DNA from: a virus
Direction: 5' to 3' (one strand)
Virus record (IMG/VR): IMGVR_UViG_3300009593_004961
Coordinates: 1-25,542 of that record
DNA length: 25,542 bases
Part shown: positions 1,047-11,500 of the stretch, piece after piece
Layout of the letters: each line of letters opens with the position of its first letter
Numbering within the stretch: the first letter of the stretch is position 1
Notes under the pieces: model-generated
The model's database searches: none
The model's input: the letters and a program-made list of their open reading frames with translations, nothing else
Told to the model about the DNA's origin: nothing
Made by a program: the position numbers and the translations under genes

Positions 1047-2168
1047 ATGCGGCGCGTGTCCCCCGAAAAGAAAATTCGCGAGGTAAGGCTCATGCGCGAG
1101 CGCACCATGCGCCGAGCTCGCCGCAGAGAGGACGCCGGGGCGCGCCGAAGACGTCTTCTAGCTCTCATCGAGAAAAATCGACACGCCATACCTGCGTCAG
1201 CGCCGAAACGTCTCCGGATTCCCCTGAGCGTACCGAAGAATCTCTCTCTCAGGGAAAACTACCATGAAACGATGAAATTCATCGGAGCCATCCGTCGATA
1301 TGCGCTCGAGGACTACCAGCCTATTGATCTATTTTTCCATGACGTTGAGGCAATCGAGGCTGGCGCACTCGTCGTCTTAACTGCTGAGATCCATCGGTGC
1401 CGAAATCTCCGAAAAGTCCACGGGCGGCCGGCAGTCAGCGGGTATTACCCCAGCAGCCCCGATATTTATCGTCAGCTCCAAGAAGCTGGATTTTTCCGCC
1501 TGCTCGAGATCCGAGACCAGCTGCCGCCGGCGGGCGCGCCAGATCCTTCGAAGACAAAGGTCGTTCTTCCATTTTTGACCGACGCGATGGTGACCGCTGA
1601 CCGTTCGGCCGACTTCGTAGACCGGCTGGCGGGCATTATTCATGACACCGTCCCCATGGACGAAACGAGCAAGCGGTACCTCCAAGGTGCAATCGTTGAG
1701 GCGATGAAGAATGCCAGGGAGCATGCCTACAAACTCAAGCCCCAGCACCAGTCGTTGGGGCATCGCTGGTGGCTGTCGGCGGCATTTGACGTTTCAACGC
1801 AGGAAGTTTCTATCCTGCTCTTCGACCAAGGTGTCGGGATACCTGCCACTCTTGAGCCTGCGTTGTTGGTTAAGGCTGAGTCTCTCGCCAAGGCTGAGGG
1901 CCTCCACCCGCGCGACAGCCTTCTCATCGAAGTCGCGACCCGTTCAGGGGAATCCTCGACACGCCAGAAGGGACGCGGAAAGGGTTTCGCAACGATGCGG
2001 AAGTTCGTTGATTTCTGTGATGATGGAGAGCTAATTGTTTACAGCAGCCAAGGTAACTACCTATATGCACGCGGTCGAACCCAACGGGCCGACCGCGCGT
2101 TGCCCCTCGGTGGAACATTGATACAATGGCGCTTCAGACATTCGAAACCGGTGACGGTCGACTCGTGA
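1047..2168 (+). CDS. GHKL-type ATPase with N-terminal STAS-like region
   Basis: The C-terminal half carries the Bergerat ATP-binding fold seen in histidine kinases and anti-sigma kinases such as SpoIIAB/RsbW: an N-box at about 218-226 (EAMKNAREH), a G1 box at 260-264 (DQGVG), a glycine-rich lid at 308-317 (KGRGKGFATM) and a closing GGTLIQWRF strand at 355-363. There is no phosphoacceptor His box, so it is not an ordinary sensor kinase. Residues about 92-150 resemble a STAS-like strand-helix unit, and residues 1-45 are very Arg-rich. The reported start is ATG 1047, but ATG 1092 is preceded by GCGAGG at good spacing and is probably the real start (358 residues). The gene overlaps the next one by 43 bases. 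It is clearly AT-richer than the phage genes, which suggests separate acquisition. I infer a switch in which the ATPase binds or phosphorylates the STAS-like partner; the output is unknown. Confidence 0.85.
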   Translation: MRRVSPEKKIREVRLMRERTMRRARRREDAGARRRRLLALIEKNRHAIPASAPKRLRIPLSVPKNLSLRENYHETMKFIGAIRRYALEDYQPIDLFFHDVEAIEAGALVVLTAEIHRCRNLRKVHGRPAVSGYYPSSPDIYRQLQEAGFFRLLEIRDQLPPAGAPDPSKTKVVLPFLTDAMVTADRSADFVDRLAGIIHDTVPMDETSKRYLQGAIVEAMKNAREHAYKLKPQHQSLGHRWWLSAAFDVSTQEVSILLFDQGVGIPATLEPALLVKAESLAKAEGLHPRDSLLIEVATRSGESSTRQKGRGKGFATMRKFVDFCDDGELIVYSSQGNYLYARGRTQRADRALPLGGTLIQWRFRHSKPVTVDS

Positions 2169-2485
2169 AACACAGAATTTCCGTGGCTCGCGACTTCTCC
2201 AAGACCCCGGGTCCCCGCTTCATTAAGCAAGGGAGCTGGAGTGGAGAGAAATTCCGCCAACTGCTTGAGAAGCAACTGAAGACGCACCACTCGCTAATTG
2301 TCGACCTGGACGGAACTCGCGGCTATGGATCGTCCTTCTTGGACGAGGCCTTTGGCGGGTTGATCCGAGAGTGCGTGTTGACCAAGCGCGAATTCGACGA
2401 GCGGATCAAGATCCTCTCAGACGAGGACCCCACTTATCTGGCTGAAGCGATGGAGTCGGTGCGGCTGGCCCAGCCGAAGCAGTAG
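2126..2485 (+). CDS. STAS-like domain protein (DUF4325 family)
   Basis: This 119-residue protein fits the STAS-like DUF4325 pattern: a basic N-terminal strand, TPGPR at 27-31, GSWSGEKFR at 36-44, then a core strand LIVDLDG at 57-63 running into GYGSSFLDEAFGGLI at 66-80. Ser69 and Ser70 sit where SpoIIAA-type anti-anti-sigma factors carry their phosphorylated Ser, which makes them candidate targets of the ATPase encoded just upstream (inference). It has no signal peptide or membrane segment, so it is probably cytoplasmic. The start codon lies inside the 3' end of the ATPase gene in another frame, which suggests translational coupling and a fixed ratio of the two proteins. The family assignment is firm; the cellular role is not known. 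Confidence 0.88.
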   Translation: MALQTFETGDGRLVKHRISVARDFSKTPGPRFIKQGSWSGEKFRQLLEKQLKTHHSLIVDLDGTRGYGSSFLDEAFGGLIRECVLTKREFDERIKILSDEDPTYLAEAMESVRLAQPKQ

Positions 2486-2495
2486 CCGACATTAG

Positions 2496-3077
2496 ATGGA
2501 GACGGGGGCCCATCAAGCTTCGCGCTTAACTCCGGACAGCATCAGCCGTGCGCCGCGGGATGAGACGGGGGCACGGGAGGGTAAGTCACTTAAGGTGCAG
2601 GTCCAGGGCGCTGGTGAGGGGGTCGTCCTAGTTTGTCCTTCAGCTCCTCAAGGAGCGAGCGCCTATTGGGTGGCGTTGCCGGGTATTGTTACGGCCCTAC
2701 TCGGCTTCTTCATCATTCATGTGCTGTCCGTCCGGCGTCAGCGACGAGACGAGCAGTTCAAGATGGTACAGGCTACTCAAGCCTTGATCATCGCCGCTGC
2801 GACCGAAGCCGAAGAGGCGTGGCAAGTTCGACGGGGGAGGGAGGCAATTGGCCCCCTCTTGATCCAGAGAGTCGCTCGGATCGGTCGAGCGATCCAACAG
2901 CTTCGAAAACGCGACCCGAAGCTAGATGTCGATGCTTGCATGACGGCCTTCCGCCAAGCTGTCACGCTCGATTACGAGAGTGGCAGCCCCTCTCCTAGCA
3001 GACGCGCTGAGATCGCTATCACTGCCGCCGCTCTTGAGGAACGTGTCATGTCCTGTTTTCTCAAGCGCTTCGGCTGA
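2496..3077 (+). CDS. Single-pass membrane protein of unknown function
   Basis: This 193-residue protein has one clear membrane helix at about 57-78 (WVALPGIVTALLGFFIIHVL), followed at once by a basic stop-transfer segment (SVRRQRR). That predicts an outside N-terminus and a cytoplasmic helical C-terminal domain of about 110 residues rich in Ala, Arg and Glu. No enzyme motif is visible. It begins 10 bases after the STAS-like gene, so it probably belongs to the same transcript and could be the membrane-bound output or sensor of that pair (inference). The first 50 residues are low in hydrophobic content and the ribosome binding site at ATG 2496 is poor, so the true start could lie further in. 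Base composition is AT-richer than the phage genes. Confidence 0.65.
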   Translation: METGAHQASRLTPDSISRAPRDETGAREGKSLKVQVQGAGEGVVLVCPSAPQGASAYWVALPGIVTALLGFFIIHVLSVRRQRRDEQFKMVQATQALIIAAATEAEEAWQVRRGREAIGPLLIQRVARIGRAIQQLRKRDPKLDVDACMTAFRQAVTLDYESGSPSPSRRAEIAITAAALEERVMSCFLKRFG

Positions 3078-3823: not shown

Positions 3824-4148
3824 CGGGAGGGCTCCGGGCTTCCTCGACCGCCGTCGCGGCCGCTTCGCGCAGGGTGATGACCTCGCGCGTATGGGTTTCG
3901 ATCCGCTCGACCTGGCGCACGGCGGCCTCGGCCGTCAGCTGGTCGGCGATGGCATTCATCTCGGCGTCGATCCGGGCGGCCTCTGACCGCGCCAGCCTGC
4001 TTTCATCCGACCAGGGCCACCACGCCGTCAGCTGGTCCAGCCTGTCCATGACCAGCCAGCCGGCCAGCAGCACCGCCAGCGCAGCAACGGCCACCTTGGC
4101 CCAGCCGGGGATCCACGCGCGGCCGGGGAAGATCTGCAGGCCACTCAC
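3648..4148 (-). CDS. Rz-like inner-membrane spanin (i-spanin)
   Basis: I place the start at GTG 4148, which overlaps the TGA of the endolysin gene (GTGA), giving 166 residues. Longer upstream reading in the same frame is only the shadow of the endolysin gene. The product has an N-terminal membrane helix at about 16-34 (WAKVAVAALAVLLAGWLVM in part) and then a long charged helical region at 52-105 rich in Ala, Glu and Arg, as expected of the periplasmic coiled coil of i-spanins. The C-terminal 60 residues overlap the start of the lipoprotein gene and are Pro/Ala-rich. The order endolysin, i-spanin, o-spanin matches phage lysis cassettes. The GTGA overlap suggests that its translation depends on termination of the endolysin. 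Confidence 0.75.
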   Translation of the reverse strand: MSGLQIFPGRAWIPGWAKVAVAALAVLLAGWLVMDRLDQLTAWWPWSDESRLARSEAARIDAEMNAIADQLTAEAAVRQVERIETHTREVITLREAAATAVEEARSPPDADTPLDPDQAERLRAGHERLCDLYAPACAADPADGAAAPGGDAALSGVPAARESNPG

Positions 4149-4597
4149 CCGGCAATCCCCGGCGTGTACCGCGTGCGGCCGCCCACGCGGCGCGCCGTCA
4201 GGGCCTGCCGCCGATCGCCGGGGCCAAAGCCGATATGGACCCACTCACCGAACTCTTCGATCACCTGGTCATAGGCCGACAGATGCTTGGCCAGATGGGC
4301 GGCGACCTTGGCCGAAGGACCGAACCCGGGGCAGATAAAGTCGACGGCGTGGCCGGTCATATGGGCCGACGTGCGCGATCCCTTCACTGCCTTGTTGACC
4401 TCCGGGCTGCGATAGCCGGAAAGCACGATGATCGGCTTGTTGCCCAGCAGGGCTCGGACCGTCTCCATCCGCGCGGCCGTGGCCGTCAGGGTGGCCAGAG
4501 CGGCCCCTGTGGGCACGTTCGACAGGCCCAGCCGAGCGCCCGTGGCGCTGACGGTCAATTCTTCCAGGGTGAAGTGCGGCGACAGCTTCGTCGTCAT
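4145..4597 (-). CDS. M15-family peptidase endolysin
   Basis: I choose ATG 4597 because AAGGAGA lies 5 bases upstream, giving 150 residues; the frame stays open to 4798 but that part has no other support. The protein carries the M15 (D-Ala-D-Ala carboxypeptidase/VanY-like) zinc site: SAHMTGHAVD with His79 and Asp86, and EWVHIGF with His121. The SGYRSPEVN stretch at 60-68 is the usual family segment before the site. M15 enzymes of this size are common as phage endolysins that cut peptidoglycan stem peptides. There is no signal peptide, so release to the periplasm should need a holin, and two membrane-protein genes lie upstream in the same operon. It is followed directly by the spanin pair. Confidence 0.9.
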   Translation of the reverse strand: MTTKLSPHFTLEELTVSATGARLGLSNVPTGAALATLTATAARMETVRALLGNKPIIVLSGYRSPEVNKAVKGSRTSAHMTGHAVDFICPGFGPSAKVAAHLAKHLSAYDQVIEEFGEWVHIGFGPGDRRQALTARRVGGRTRYTPGIAG

Positions 4598-4702
4598 CGG
4601 GTTCTCCTTCGTTTCTAGAGTTTGGTGAATGGACGTCGAGCTCGGGTTCGACGCCCTCAGCCCCCTGCACCGAGTGTGGTCGGCTCTGCTGTCGGTCCCG
4701 CC

Positions 4703-4723
4703 GTTGAGGCTCTCGACCGCAAC
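4703..4723. repeat. Imperfect inverted repeat between divergent genes
   Basis: GTTGAGG and CCGCAAC form 7-base arms with one mismatch around a 7-base spacer. The repeat lies in the 203-base gap (4598-4800) between the endolysin gene and the divergent Gly-rich membrane protein gene, so it could be an operator, but nothing else supports this. Confidence 0.25.
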
Positions 4724-4753
4724 TTCCCTGAATGTCGCGACCCGAAGAGCCGA

Positions 4754-4783
4754 TTCGATCCGGCCAAGGCAATGCGGTATAGT
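4754..4783 (+). promoter_or_regulatory. Weak candidate promoter for the Gly-rich membrane protein
   Basis: TATAGT at 4778-4783 is a good -10 match, with TTCGAT at 4754-4759 as a poor -35 at 18-base spacing. It lies just upstream of the strong ribosome binding site of the gene that starts at 4801, so the leader would be very short. Confidence 0.25.
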
Positions 4784-4800
4784 GGAGGTGGAGGTCACCG

Positions 4801-5163
4801 ATGACTTGGCGGGACTGGCGCGAAAACCTGACGTTCGTGATCTTCGTGGTCGTGGCCGGCGTCACCCTTGAGCCCGCGGTCAAGGCACTGCTTCATGGCC
4901 GCAATGCGCCGCCGGTGTTCGGCGCTCACCTTTGGGGTGGTTCAACGACCAACGATGGCGGGTACACAATCAACGACAGCGCCGTGGTCACCAAATCTAG
5001 TGGCGGAACCGACGTTAGCGGCGGAGGGGCGGATACCGGCCACGGGGGCACTGATCTGAGCGGGCAAGCAGATGTCTCCGAAGGCACCGGATGGGGCGGC
5101 GCTTACGAAGGAACCGGATGGGGCGGCAACGACGAGGGAACCGGACGGGGCGGTTCTGAGTGA
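4801..5163 (+). CDS. Membrane-anchored Gly-rich repeat protein, antisense to the late operon
   Basis: This 120-residue protein has a purine-rich ribosome binding site (GGAGGTGGAGG) before ATG 4801. It has one hydrophobic helix at about 10-30 (LTFVIFVVVAGVTL) and then a low-complexity tail rich in Gly, Thr, Ser and Asp. The last part holds three copies of EGTGWGG-like units, encoded by a 27-base repeat at 5080-5153. A short N-terminus before the helix and a Gly-rich distal part suggest a surface- or periplasm-facing tail (inference). I do not recognise a family. It is the only plus-strand gene inside the minus-strand tail and lysis block and looks like an independently transcribed extra gene (moron). 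The opposite strand here holds only a shadow frame. Confidence 0.6.
   Translation: MTWRDWRENLTFVIFVVVAGVTLEPAVKALLHGRNAPPVFGAHLWGGSTTNDGGYTINDSAVVTKSSGGTDVSGGGADTGHGGTDLSGQADVSEGTGWGGAYEGTGWGGNDEGTGRGGSE
5080..5153 (+). repeat. 27-base tandem repeat, three copies
   Basis: Units begin at 5080, 5107 and 5134, each with a 20-base core of the form GARGGMACCGGAYGGGGCGG. They encode EGTGWGG, EGTGWGG and EGTGRGG at the C-terminus of the Gly-rich membrane protein. Copy number may vary between strains through slippage or recombination. Confidence 0.85.
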
Positions 5164-8546: not shown

Positions 8547-11500
8547 TCAGACCAGGGCGACGGTTTTCAGATGTCGGACAGTGGCCGTCCGGTCCGTAAA
8601 GTCCCGGTGCGTGAATCCGGTATTGGTCGAGGCCCAGGCCAGCATCCGATAGGTGTGCGTGCCGGCAGCCGGCTGGTCCAGGAAGGTCGGCGACCAGAAG
8701 CCGTGCAGCTGGTCGCCATTGATCGCGGTGATCACCAGGTCGTTGCGCACCGGCCCGAACCCGACCCGGTCGAACCGGATATGAAGGGTGAAGTCGCCGG
8801 CGGACGGGTGCCAGAACTTGGCCATGAAGGCCATCTCGATCTGCAGCTGCTCGCCGTCGGTGTCCACGTCGAACGTCATCACCGTGACGGCCGTTGCGTC
8901 AGACGTCGCCCCCGCCGTCGTCACCGTTCCGGTGAACTCGAACGGGTCCAGCCCCTCGATGCTGTTCGGATTGATGTCAGCGGTGCCGATCGCATCCTTC
9001 AGCGACAGCAGGCCCAGATCGTCCCCGTTCGGCAGGCCGTCCAGCTTCAGGAAGGCCGTCATGTCCAGCGCCGCCAGATCCGCCGGGTTGACCTCGGCCC
9101 CTTCCTCAATCGTCGCCAGTTTCAGCTCCGCCACGCCGAAGTCGGTTTCCAGCGTGGCCAGACCGATCTCGACGGCATCGATGTCCGCGCCCAGCGCCGT
9201 CTCGGCCGCCGCCAGATCCCCGGCCAGGCCGGTAAGGTCAGCGTCCAGGGCCCCGATCTGGGTCGTGTGCCCCCCGACCGTCGTCGTCAGCCCGGCGATC
9301 GCCGACGTATTCCCGCCGACCGTGGATTCGAGCGCATCGATCTCGCCCCCCAGGGCCAGCTCGGCCGCCGCCAGATCGGACGTCAGGGTCGCCAGCTCCG
9401 TCGTATGCCCCCCGACGGTCAGCTCGACCGCATCGATCTCGCCCTGCAGCGTCGTTTCGGCCAGCGCCAGATCCGACGTCAGGCTGACCACATCGGCCGC
9501 GACCAGACCGATCTGGCCTTCCAGACCATCGACCGCGTCCGACAGCTCCAGCTGCACCACCAGCCCGCTGTCGGTGATGATGTCCGGCCGCAGGGGGCGG
9601 TTCACATCGCCGAAGTCGTCGAGGCCCAGCTCGGTCCGGGACGTCACATCGAACAGGTTGAGCGTGGATCCTTCCAGATCCAGCTCGGCCGCGCGCAGCA
9701 GGGCCCGGCGCGAGACCGGATTGACCTCGGCCAGCACGCCCACGAGCGCCCGGGTCAGAACCTCGTTCGCCTCGGCCTCGCCCTCGGCTTCCAGATCCGC
9801 ATCGAACCGCGCGCGGGCTTCATCCAGCTGGTCCCACAGAACCCGCCGGCGGCCCGGCCCGGTCGGGGTCAGATCATCCGACACCCCCTGACCGACGCGC
9901 AACAGCACCCAGTTCGAGGGCACGACCTGCCGGTTCGTCCGCGTCACCGGCACCAGCCGCGCTTCCAGCCACGATCCCGACAGCACCCCCTGCGTCACCG
10001 GCAGGATGCCGGCATTGACCGCCTCGGTCGTCGTCGGGGCCACATCGGTCGCACCGCGCAGCCGCACCTCGGCCCGGATGGCGACGATCGCCGCATCAAC
10101 CGGCACCGCCCAGCCGAAGCGCAGACCGGGCTGCACCGCCCCCGTCTCGCTGGCCGACAGTTGCATCGGCTGGACCGCGACCTCCGTCAGATAGACCGGG
10201 TCCGGCTGGGGCGTGGGCGTCAGCGGATCGGCGTCGTCGTCCAGCTCGTCGCCGTCGTCGAACACGTCGGCCGAGATCTCGCGCAGCACCAGATACTGCC
10301 GCCAGTTCGGTCCCAGCTCGGCTTCCTCGACCTGATAGGTGACGGTCGCCCCGCCGTGCCGGCGATCGCTCTGCCAATCGATCCAGTCGCCCTCTTCCAG
10401 CGCGGCGAAGCGCGGCGGCAGCACGATCGAGGCCCTCCGCTCCTTGCGTTCACGCCGGCGCCTGATCTCGGCGCACCGGTCCGCCTGGGCGCCCCAGGTG
10501 ACCAGCGGCAGGGGCAGGGTCAGCTCGCGCGGACCGTCGTCCTCGCGGATGTCGTCCAGATCCCGGCGCACCGGCCCGGAATGGTCCTGCCAGCCCTGCT
10601 CCGGCTCCACATACCGGGGGATGACGGTGTTGTAGCGGCCGTTCGATCCATCGGGGCTGAAGGCGTTGAACACGACCTTTTCGCCGACCACCAGATCGCC
10701 GTCCGTGATCGTCATCACCGGGGCCTTGGCATGGCCCGGCTCGACCTCGATCCCGCCCTCGCGCTGCACCACCTGACCGGCCATGGCATCGGCCAGCCAC
10801 TGGGCCACCACATCATGCCCGTCGGCGGTCGTGATCACCCCGGCCGCGCGATAACGGGGCGCGCCGCCGACCAGCTCATCGCACAGGGCGATCCACGGCA
10901 GCACCGCCTCGGGCGGCGCTTCCTCGGTCGTCAGGCCCCGCCCGAACAGCAGGTGCTCGGCCTGGCCGTGCCGGCCGGTGACATAGATCCCCCGGCGATA
11001 GTTGTACTCAATGACCGCGGCATTCTCGGTGAACTCATGCGTCGACGGATCGTCCCAGACGTGCGGGCTCGGCCCCGCATAGCCCAGGGCCGGATCCTTG
11101 GCCGGATTGTAGAACTTGGCGCCCTTGACCAGCCACCGGAACGCCGGATGCCCGGTCCAGGCCTCCTCATCGATCGTATAGGCCACCCAGACATGGGCCA
11201 CGCCGATCAGCTTGTCGGCCGCTGTCCAGCCGCCCTCGCTGGCGAACCGGGCGGGCGGCACGCCGCCGGCCGCCGAGGCGTTGACGAACTCGATATCCAG
11301 CTTGCCGTTGAAGCCCAGCTGCACGCCCGAGAATCCGAACCCCTGATAGGCGTCGTCGACAAAGAAGCCTTCCAGCTGGGTGATCTCGTGATCGGCCAGG
11401 GCAATGACGCGAACGACCGTATCCGTGCCGTACTGGCCACCAAAGTTGAAGGGATCGACCAGAGATCCACCGGTGACCGCCCGCCCGACAACCAGCTCGC

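Follow-up and report, generated by a model that had tools for sequence, protein, structure and literature searches.

The window analyzed here is the complete virus record IMGVR_UViG_3300009593_004961 (25,542 bases), which is that of a temperate phage with its structural genes mostly on the minus strand. On the plus strand it carries a cassette of three tightly packed ORFs (A, B, and C), and the question that this locus raises is whether the three genes form a functional unit and what such a unit could do for the phage. A first-pass annotation, made from the letters alone, had placed an ATPase, an overlapping STAS-like protein, and a membrane protein at 1047-3077 and had suggested an undescribed signaling or defense module. 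All three ORFs were found there, encoding 373 aa (A), 119 or 106 aa depending on the start codon (B, from ATG 2126 or GTG 2165), and 193 aa (C). The features assigned to the cassette are listed below, with residues of B numbered from ATG 2126.

1047..2168, plus strand: gene A, STAS-GHKL serine-kinase-like protein, VapK-like, 373 aa (phrog_3364, AF2, VIA, hhalign)
1047..1217, plus strand: basic helical N-terminal extension of A, residues 1-57, net charge +16 (model helix 6-43, charge)
1218..1553, plus strand: N-terminal STAS-like domain of A, residues 58-169 (beta/alpha order of the model; alignment with the VapK STAS domain)
1554..2147, plus strand: Bergerat (GHKL) kinase domain of A, residues 170-367 (conserved residues, fold matches)
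1767..1772, plus strand: near-invariant Trp241-Trp242 of A past the N box, candidate signal-binding site (conservation in relatives)
2165..2485 (longest ORF from 2126), plus strand: gene B, DUF4325 STAS-like protein, VapS-like (PF14213, E 1.3e-15)
2333..2335, plus strand: Ser70 codon of B (Ser57 from GTG 2165), candidate phosphoacceptor (invariance)
2496..3077, plus strand: gene C, single-pass membrane protein, candidate effector (family found downstream of the A-B pair in most loci)
2670..2726, plus strand: transmembrane segment of C, residues 59-77 (hydropathy)
2727..3074, plus strand: predicted cytoplasmic four-helix bundle of C with a conserved R...T motif (AF2 model)

All three ORFs are real genes. 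The sole close relatives of the cassette are L002/L010, from another IMG/VR phage, with amino acid identities of 68% (A), 70% (B), and 49% (C). Compared with these relatives, silent sites are saturated (pS 0.79-0.89 over the three genes) and replacement sites are constrained (pN 0.22 for A, 0.22 for B, and 0.36 for C), while the likeness at the DNA level is confined to the cassette, with dissimilar flanks. Because the flanks differ and replacement changes are strongly depleted relative to silent ones, we regard the cassette as functional and as moving as a unit. The composition shift that had been reported for it is borne out, the cassette having a GC content of 58.1% and the window one of 67.7%; at third codon positions, GC is 63-72% in the cassette genes versus 91% in the adjoining upstream gene for SRAP (SOS response-associated peptidase; 352-990). 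We detected no LexA/SOS box upstream of the cassette, matches over the whole window being at chance level, and promoter and terminator scans gave no signal exceeding chance.

The 43-base overlap between A and B described in the first-pass annotation exists only if B starts at ATG 2126. A start at GTG 2165 instead produces a 4-base overlap (GTGA) with the stop codon of A; this GTG is kept at the same place in L002, B proteins of relatives begin near there, and a 4-base overlap is the commonest A/B arrangement across 155 loci. GTG 2165 is most likely the start of B.

Gene A gave a weak match to Pfam HATPase_c and a strong match to the phage family phrog_3364 (E 6e-43). Its AF2 model (pLDDT 89.7) consists of a basic N-terminal helix, a domain with the beta/alpha order of a STAS domain, and a Bergerat domain, for which the best VIA matches were SpoIIAB (Z 14.3) and RsbW (Z 12.2), above the scores near 10 of most GHKL proteins. 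The catalytic residues are intact, E218, N222, D260, G262, G311, and G313 being kept in 66 of 66 relatives. These results agree with the earlier description of a Bergerat-fold ATPase lacking a His acceptor; the identification of A as a histidine kinase was rejected, given that no phosphoacceptor domain is present and that the closest folds are serine kinases. The N-terminal extension, which across the kinase family has a median net charge of +14 over 48 residues, may bind nucleic acid. Trp241 and Trp242, preceded by basic residues, are found in 65 and 63 of the 66 relatives, respectively. They sit 19-20 residues past the N-box Asn, and in CapK, K237 and K239 lie 19-21 residues past N218 (PMC13373217), a correspondence that would fit a ligand site common to the two kinases.

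The identity of the second gene as a DUF4325 protein was confirmed (E 1.3e-15). Two candidate phospho-Ser residues had been proposed for it, at positions 69 and 70, of which only the latter is invariant. Among 21 relatives recovered by a search with the kinase only, in which no serine motif was used, Ser70 is Ser in all 21 and position 69 varies among S, A, R, and P; in the wider set of relatives, which is partly motif-selected, Ser70 is Ser in 66 of 66.

The third gene encodes a single-pass membrane protein, as had been claimed, with a transmembrane (TM) segment at residues 59-77 by hydropathy. In the AF2 model (pLDDT 82), a long helix that includes this segment is followed by a helical bundle. 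Basic residues lie C-terminal to the TM segment in 57 of 64 relatives, and this positive charge indicates that the C-terminal bundle is cytoplasmic, where it could be within reach of the DUF4325 protein. In bacterial copies, C has one or two TM segments, with the cytoplasmic domain common to both forms. No Pfam family matches C; a few small unannotated PHROGs cover it, and there is a weak match to the holin family phrog_4237 (E 0.0012). Searches for a known fold gave a best Foldseek E of 0.13 and a best VIA Z of 13.4, the latter in the range of unrelated helical bundles, and the closest structural neighbors of the model are generic helical bundles, including sensor and chemoreceptor domains.

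We then considered whether the three genes belong together. Scanning viral contigs with a DUF4325 motif yielded 223 relatives, 80 of which were kept. The three-gene order, which the first-pass annotation had proposed to seek in other prophages, is present in about 78 of these 80 loci: an A-type ORF lies directly upstream of B in 78, the remaining two being at contig ends, and a C-type ORF lies directly downstream of B in 78. The A proteins of the viral loci all belong to one family, and an iterative profile search united 82 of 86 C proteins in one family. Since the DUF4325 scans had used a serine motif, we rechecked the association with a kinase profile alone. This search identified carriers in 10 of 398 Pseudomonadota species and 14 of 298 Pseudomonadaceae genomes. 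Among the 22 new loci that it provided, DUF4325 is adjacent to the kinase in 21 and fused to it in the 22nd, and a membrane-protein gene comes next in 20. Conversely, a C profile run against the 298 Pseudomonadaceae genomes gave 11 matches at E below 1e-4, every one beside those kinases, and four weaker matches that fall in long unrelated frames. Pairwise distances co-vary among the three proteins (Mantel r of 0.68 for A-B, 0.78 for A-C, and 0.61 for B-C, values reached by 0 of 999 permutations), though some of this correlation may come from common descent of the phages that carry the genes. Taken together, the conserved order, the co-variation, and the converse search with the membrane profile exclude a chance grouping and identify A-B-C as a fixed module of three genes. 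Neither of the two observations that the first-pass annotation had named as refuting its reading was made: the membrane protein accompanies the pair, and the patchy distribution (10 of 398 species and 14 of 298 genomes) indicates that the module is not core, which excludes a core housekeeping locus.

The spread of the module is broad. A scan of GTDB genomes gave 357 relatives in many phyla, including Pseudomonadota, Bacteroidota, Bacillota, Planctomycetota, and Patescibacteria. Plasmids of Vibrio, Acinetobacter, and Leptospira carry the module, Novosphingobium plasmids carry A and B only, and one of the plasmid carriers is ICE-like. The trio is also found in Marinobacter phage AS1, and the module in a Helicobacter prophage. 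In Francisella phage KIRK, the trio passes without remark under the annotations 'HP / HP, DUF4325 / HP, TM' (PMC7924643). Several variant loci were observed as well. The fusion locus (L187:366-1565) encodes a natural single STAS-GHKL-DUF4325 protein, with no membrane gene beside it. On a Brevundimonas contig (L156:8926-11450), tandem kinase paralogues flank a single DUF4325 gene. Three Pseudomonadales MAGs (L117, L126, and L168) contain, near 9950-10480, DUF4325-like genes that have neither a kinase nor a membrane gene next to them; the ORF ahead of the L117 gene is phosphoribosyltransferase-like.

Of 50 viral records with the module, 37 contain a tyrosine integrase and 28 an S24-type CI repressor. 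In 19 of these 28, no more than 3.5 kb separates the CI gene from B (random placement: mean 5.7, maximum 14 over 2000 trials), and in 18 of the 19, it is directly upstream on the same strand. In phage lambda the gene order is cI-rexA-rexB, which the CI-then-module order of these 18 of 28 relatives parallels. The cassette in the window itself has the SRAP gene upstream, and no CI gene is beside it within the 25.5-kb fragment. SRAP also adjoins the module in L029, L076, L119, and L163, alphaproteobacterial loci that show differing orientations. Downstream of the cassette, the lysis genes of the window, among them a peptidase M15 endolysin (4145-4798), lie on the opposite strand; the product of a small ORF beside them (4801-5163) has a hydrophobic segment at its N terminus and a repetitive, Gly-rich tail (GTGWGG repeats). 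Around the bacterial copies, genes of mobile elements, phages, and restriction systems are intermixed, no one defense family dominates, and there was no clear enrichment of known defense genes around them. The PADLOC 2023 models gave zero matches for A, B, and C and two isolated weak matches among 66 kinases. As the annotation had stated, no sigma factor lies nearby: none appeared among the Pfam families listed for flanking genes, and a target encoded farther away may exist.

The partner-switch layout that had been proposed for the cassette is supported by the closest folds, SpoIIAB and RsbW, and by homology to VapKSC, an anti-phage switch with experimental support (Chambers et al., EMBO J 2026), in which the VapC toxin is inhibited by VapS and a phospho-mimic abolishes the inhibition (PMC13373217). 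That operon protects against phage Bas42, and the STAS serine is required (PMC13373217). For comparison, we used a VapKSC operon in a Gammaproteobacteria-class genome (L201:883-2661) that encodes VapK, VapS, and a PIN-domain VapC. An hhalign comparison of its VapK with the cassette kinase family covered 234 columns, spanning the STAS domain through the C terminus, with a probability of 96.9 and an E of 1.4e-10. The VapS of this operon matches Pfam DUF4325 (E 3.4e-13), and a PIN protein is encoded by the third gene there. The top PDB sequence match of B is Escherichia VapS, at an E of 0.068 that alone is not significant. By these profile comparisons, the kinase and the STAS protein of the cassette are homologous to VapK and VapS, and this homology leads us to expect that the cassette is a switch of that kind, its effector being a membrane protein.

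The reading that we propose as the likeliest, with an even chance, is that the cassette is a mobile, phage-borne, and lysogen-expressed VapKS-type partner switch that governs a membrane effector and acts against rival phage. At rest, the DUF4325 protein would keep the membrane protein silent by binding its cytoplasmic bundle. The kinase (STAS-GHKL, basic at the N terminus) would sense infection or DNA damage, perhaps through single-stranded DNA as CapK does, and would phosphorylate Ser70, upon which the DUF4325 protein would release the membrane protein. Once freed, the latter would damage or arrest the cell ahead of completion of the rival phage, with a presumed benefit to the lysogen. A role in defense or exclusion is favored by the VapKSC homology together with the CI-adjacent position in other phages. 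The broader proposition falls a little short of an even chance: it would make these modules a widespread, lysogen-expressed exclusion class that takes over the job of RexAB, the kinase and DUF4325 antitoxin firing an exchangeable effector (1-TM, 2-TM, or PIN).

The membrane protein could instead be a sensor of envelope stress or phage DNA entry, with the kinase-STAS output hitting another target. One-pass anchors and helical bundles are common in receptors, sensor and chemoreceptor domains are the best structural neighbors of C, and the anchor of C switches between one and two TM segments with the cytoplasmic domain retained. However, the charge rule puts the bundle of C in the cytoplasm and the matched sensors are periplasmic, the resemblance is no closer than that among generic bundles, neither a sigma factor nor a DNA-binding domain is conserved as an output gene, and the third gene of VapKSC is a toxin; we consider a sensor unlikely, if the strongest of the competing explanations. 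Slightly less probable still is a switch that works in the maintenance of mobile elements, as an addiction or stability module, and not in phage defense. Its patchy spread over plasmids, including the ICE-like one, and prophages would suit such a role, of which antitoxin instability is the hallmark, but the phage copies prefer the place behind CI, where exclusion genes sit, and the homologous VapKSC protects against phage.

A transcription switch, CapKS-like or anti-sigma-like, governing lysogeny or host genes would draw on domain types that the cassette has in common with CapK and CapS, and CapKS is found upstream of immune operons (PMC13373217). With a DUF4325 protein of ~106-119 aa that has no winged helix and no conserved sigma factor nearby, we think this improbable. 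Least probable by far is that C is a holin and the cassette part of the lysis region. The weak phrog_4237 match and the nearby M15 endolysin would agree with this, but relatives occupy sites behind CI as well as plasmid and chromosomal ones, and in the window the lysis genes are encoded on the opposite strand and the composition of the cassette is different.

The proposed VapKS-type switch can be set beside several known systems. The closest solved folds for the kinase domain are those of SpoIIAB/SpoIIAA and RsbW/RsbV, which likewise have a STAS partner with an invariant Ser; the cassette kinase shares with RsbW and SpoIIAB the Bergerat fold, the N box (E218/N222 in 66/66), and the absence of a His phosphoacceptor. 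Unlike those systems, the cassette has no sigma factor nearby and has an additional STAS domain in the kinase and a membrane protein as third partner. The exclusion pairs RexAB, Butters, Sbash, and CarolAnn are, like the cassette, prophage genes that include a membrane component, and a model for Rex has been put forward (PMC7542560, PMC11436027). By description they stand apart, since RexA is not a kinase and RexB-type partners have four TM segments, in contrast to C. CapK, which is related to VapK, is activated by single-stranded DNA, and CapKS is located upstream of immune operons that include the DUF4747/CarolAnn prophage system (PMC13373217). CapK and CapS resemble the cassette in pairing a STAS-GHKL kinase with a neighboring STAS protein, but CapK has an HTH and CapS a winged-helix DNA-binding domain, and the cassette proteins show neither, there being no Pfam match for an HTH in either protein and the STAS protein having only ~106-119 aa. 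If the switch operates as proposed, kinase-STAS pairs would be a general trigger for attached, unrelated killing parts, and many temperate phages would bear such a trigger next to their repressor.

VapKSC itself comes closest, being a three-gene operon of a STAS-GHKL kinase, a DUF4325/STAS protein, and a third partner. A search for VapS on plasmids gave zero matches. The conserved Ser of VapS aligns with position 69 of B, one residue ahead of the invariant Ser70, and the cassette kinases add the basic N-terminal extension and the near-invariant Trp-Trp. The VapK aromatic closest to the presumed single-stranded DNA site (W42 in L201) stands opposite Ile103 of the cassette kinase, in a column that is aromatic in 5 of 66 sequences, and therefore the signal may differ. 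The main difference is in the third gene, which in VapKSC encodes a PIN-domain toxin and in the cassette a 1- or 2-TM membrane protein without a Pfam match. In the accessible portion of the literature and family libraries searched, which lay outside preprints and many subscription journals, the kinase-DUF4325-membrane version was undescribed, and the papers mentioning DUF4325 left its function untreated. The word 'undescribed' in the first-pass annotation accordingly applies to the version with the membrane protein and not to the kinase-STAS half, which now has a described relative (PMC13373217). Pfam still lists DUF4325 as being of unknown function; the VapS of L201 ties it to a described antitoxin family and so gives it a likely function. 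The membrane-protein version is the new part, and it extends the anti-phage switch described in 2026 to a form carried by phages, in which the partner is a membrane protein of a new class.
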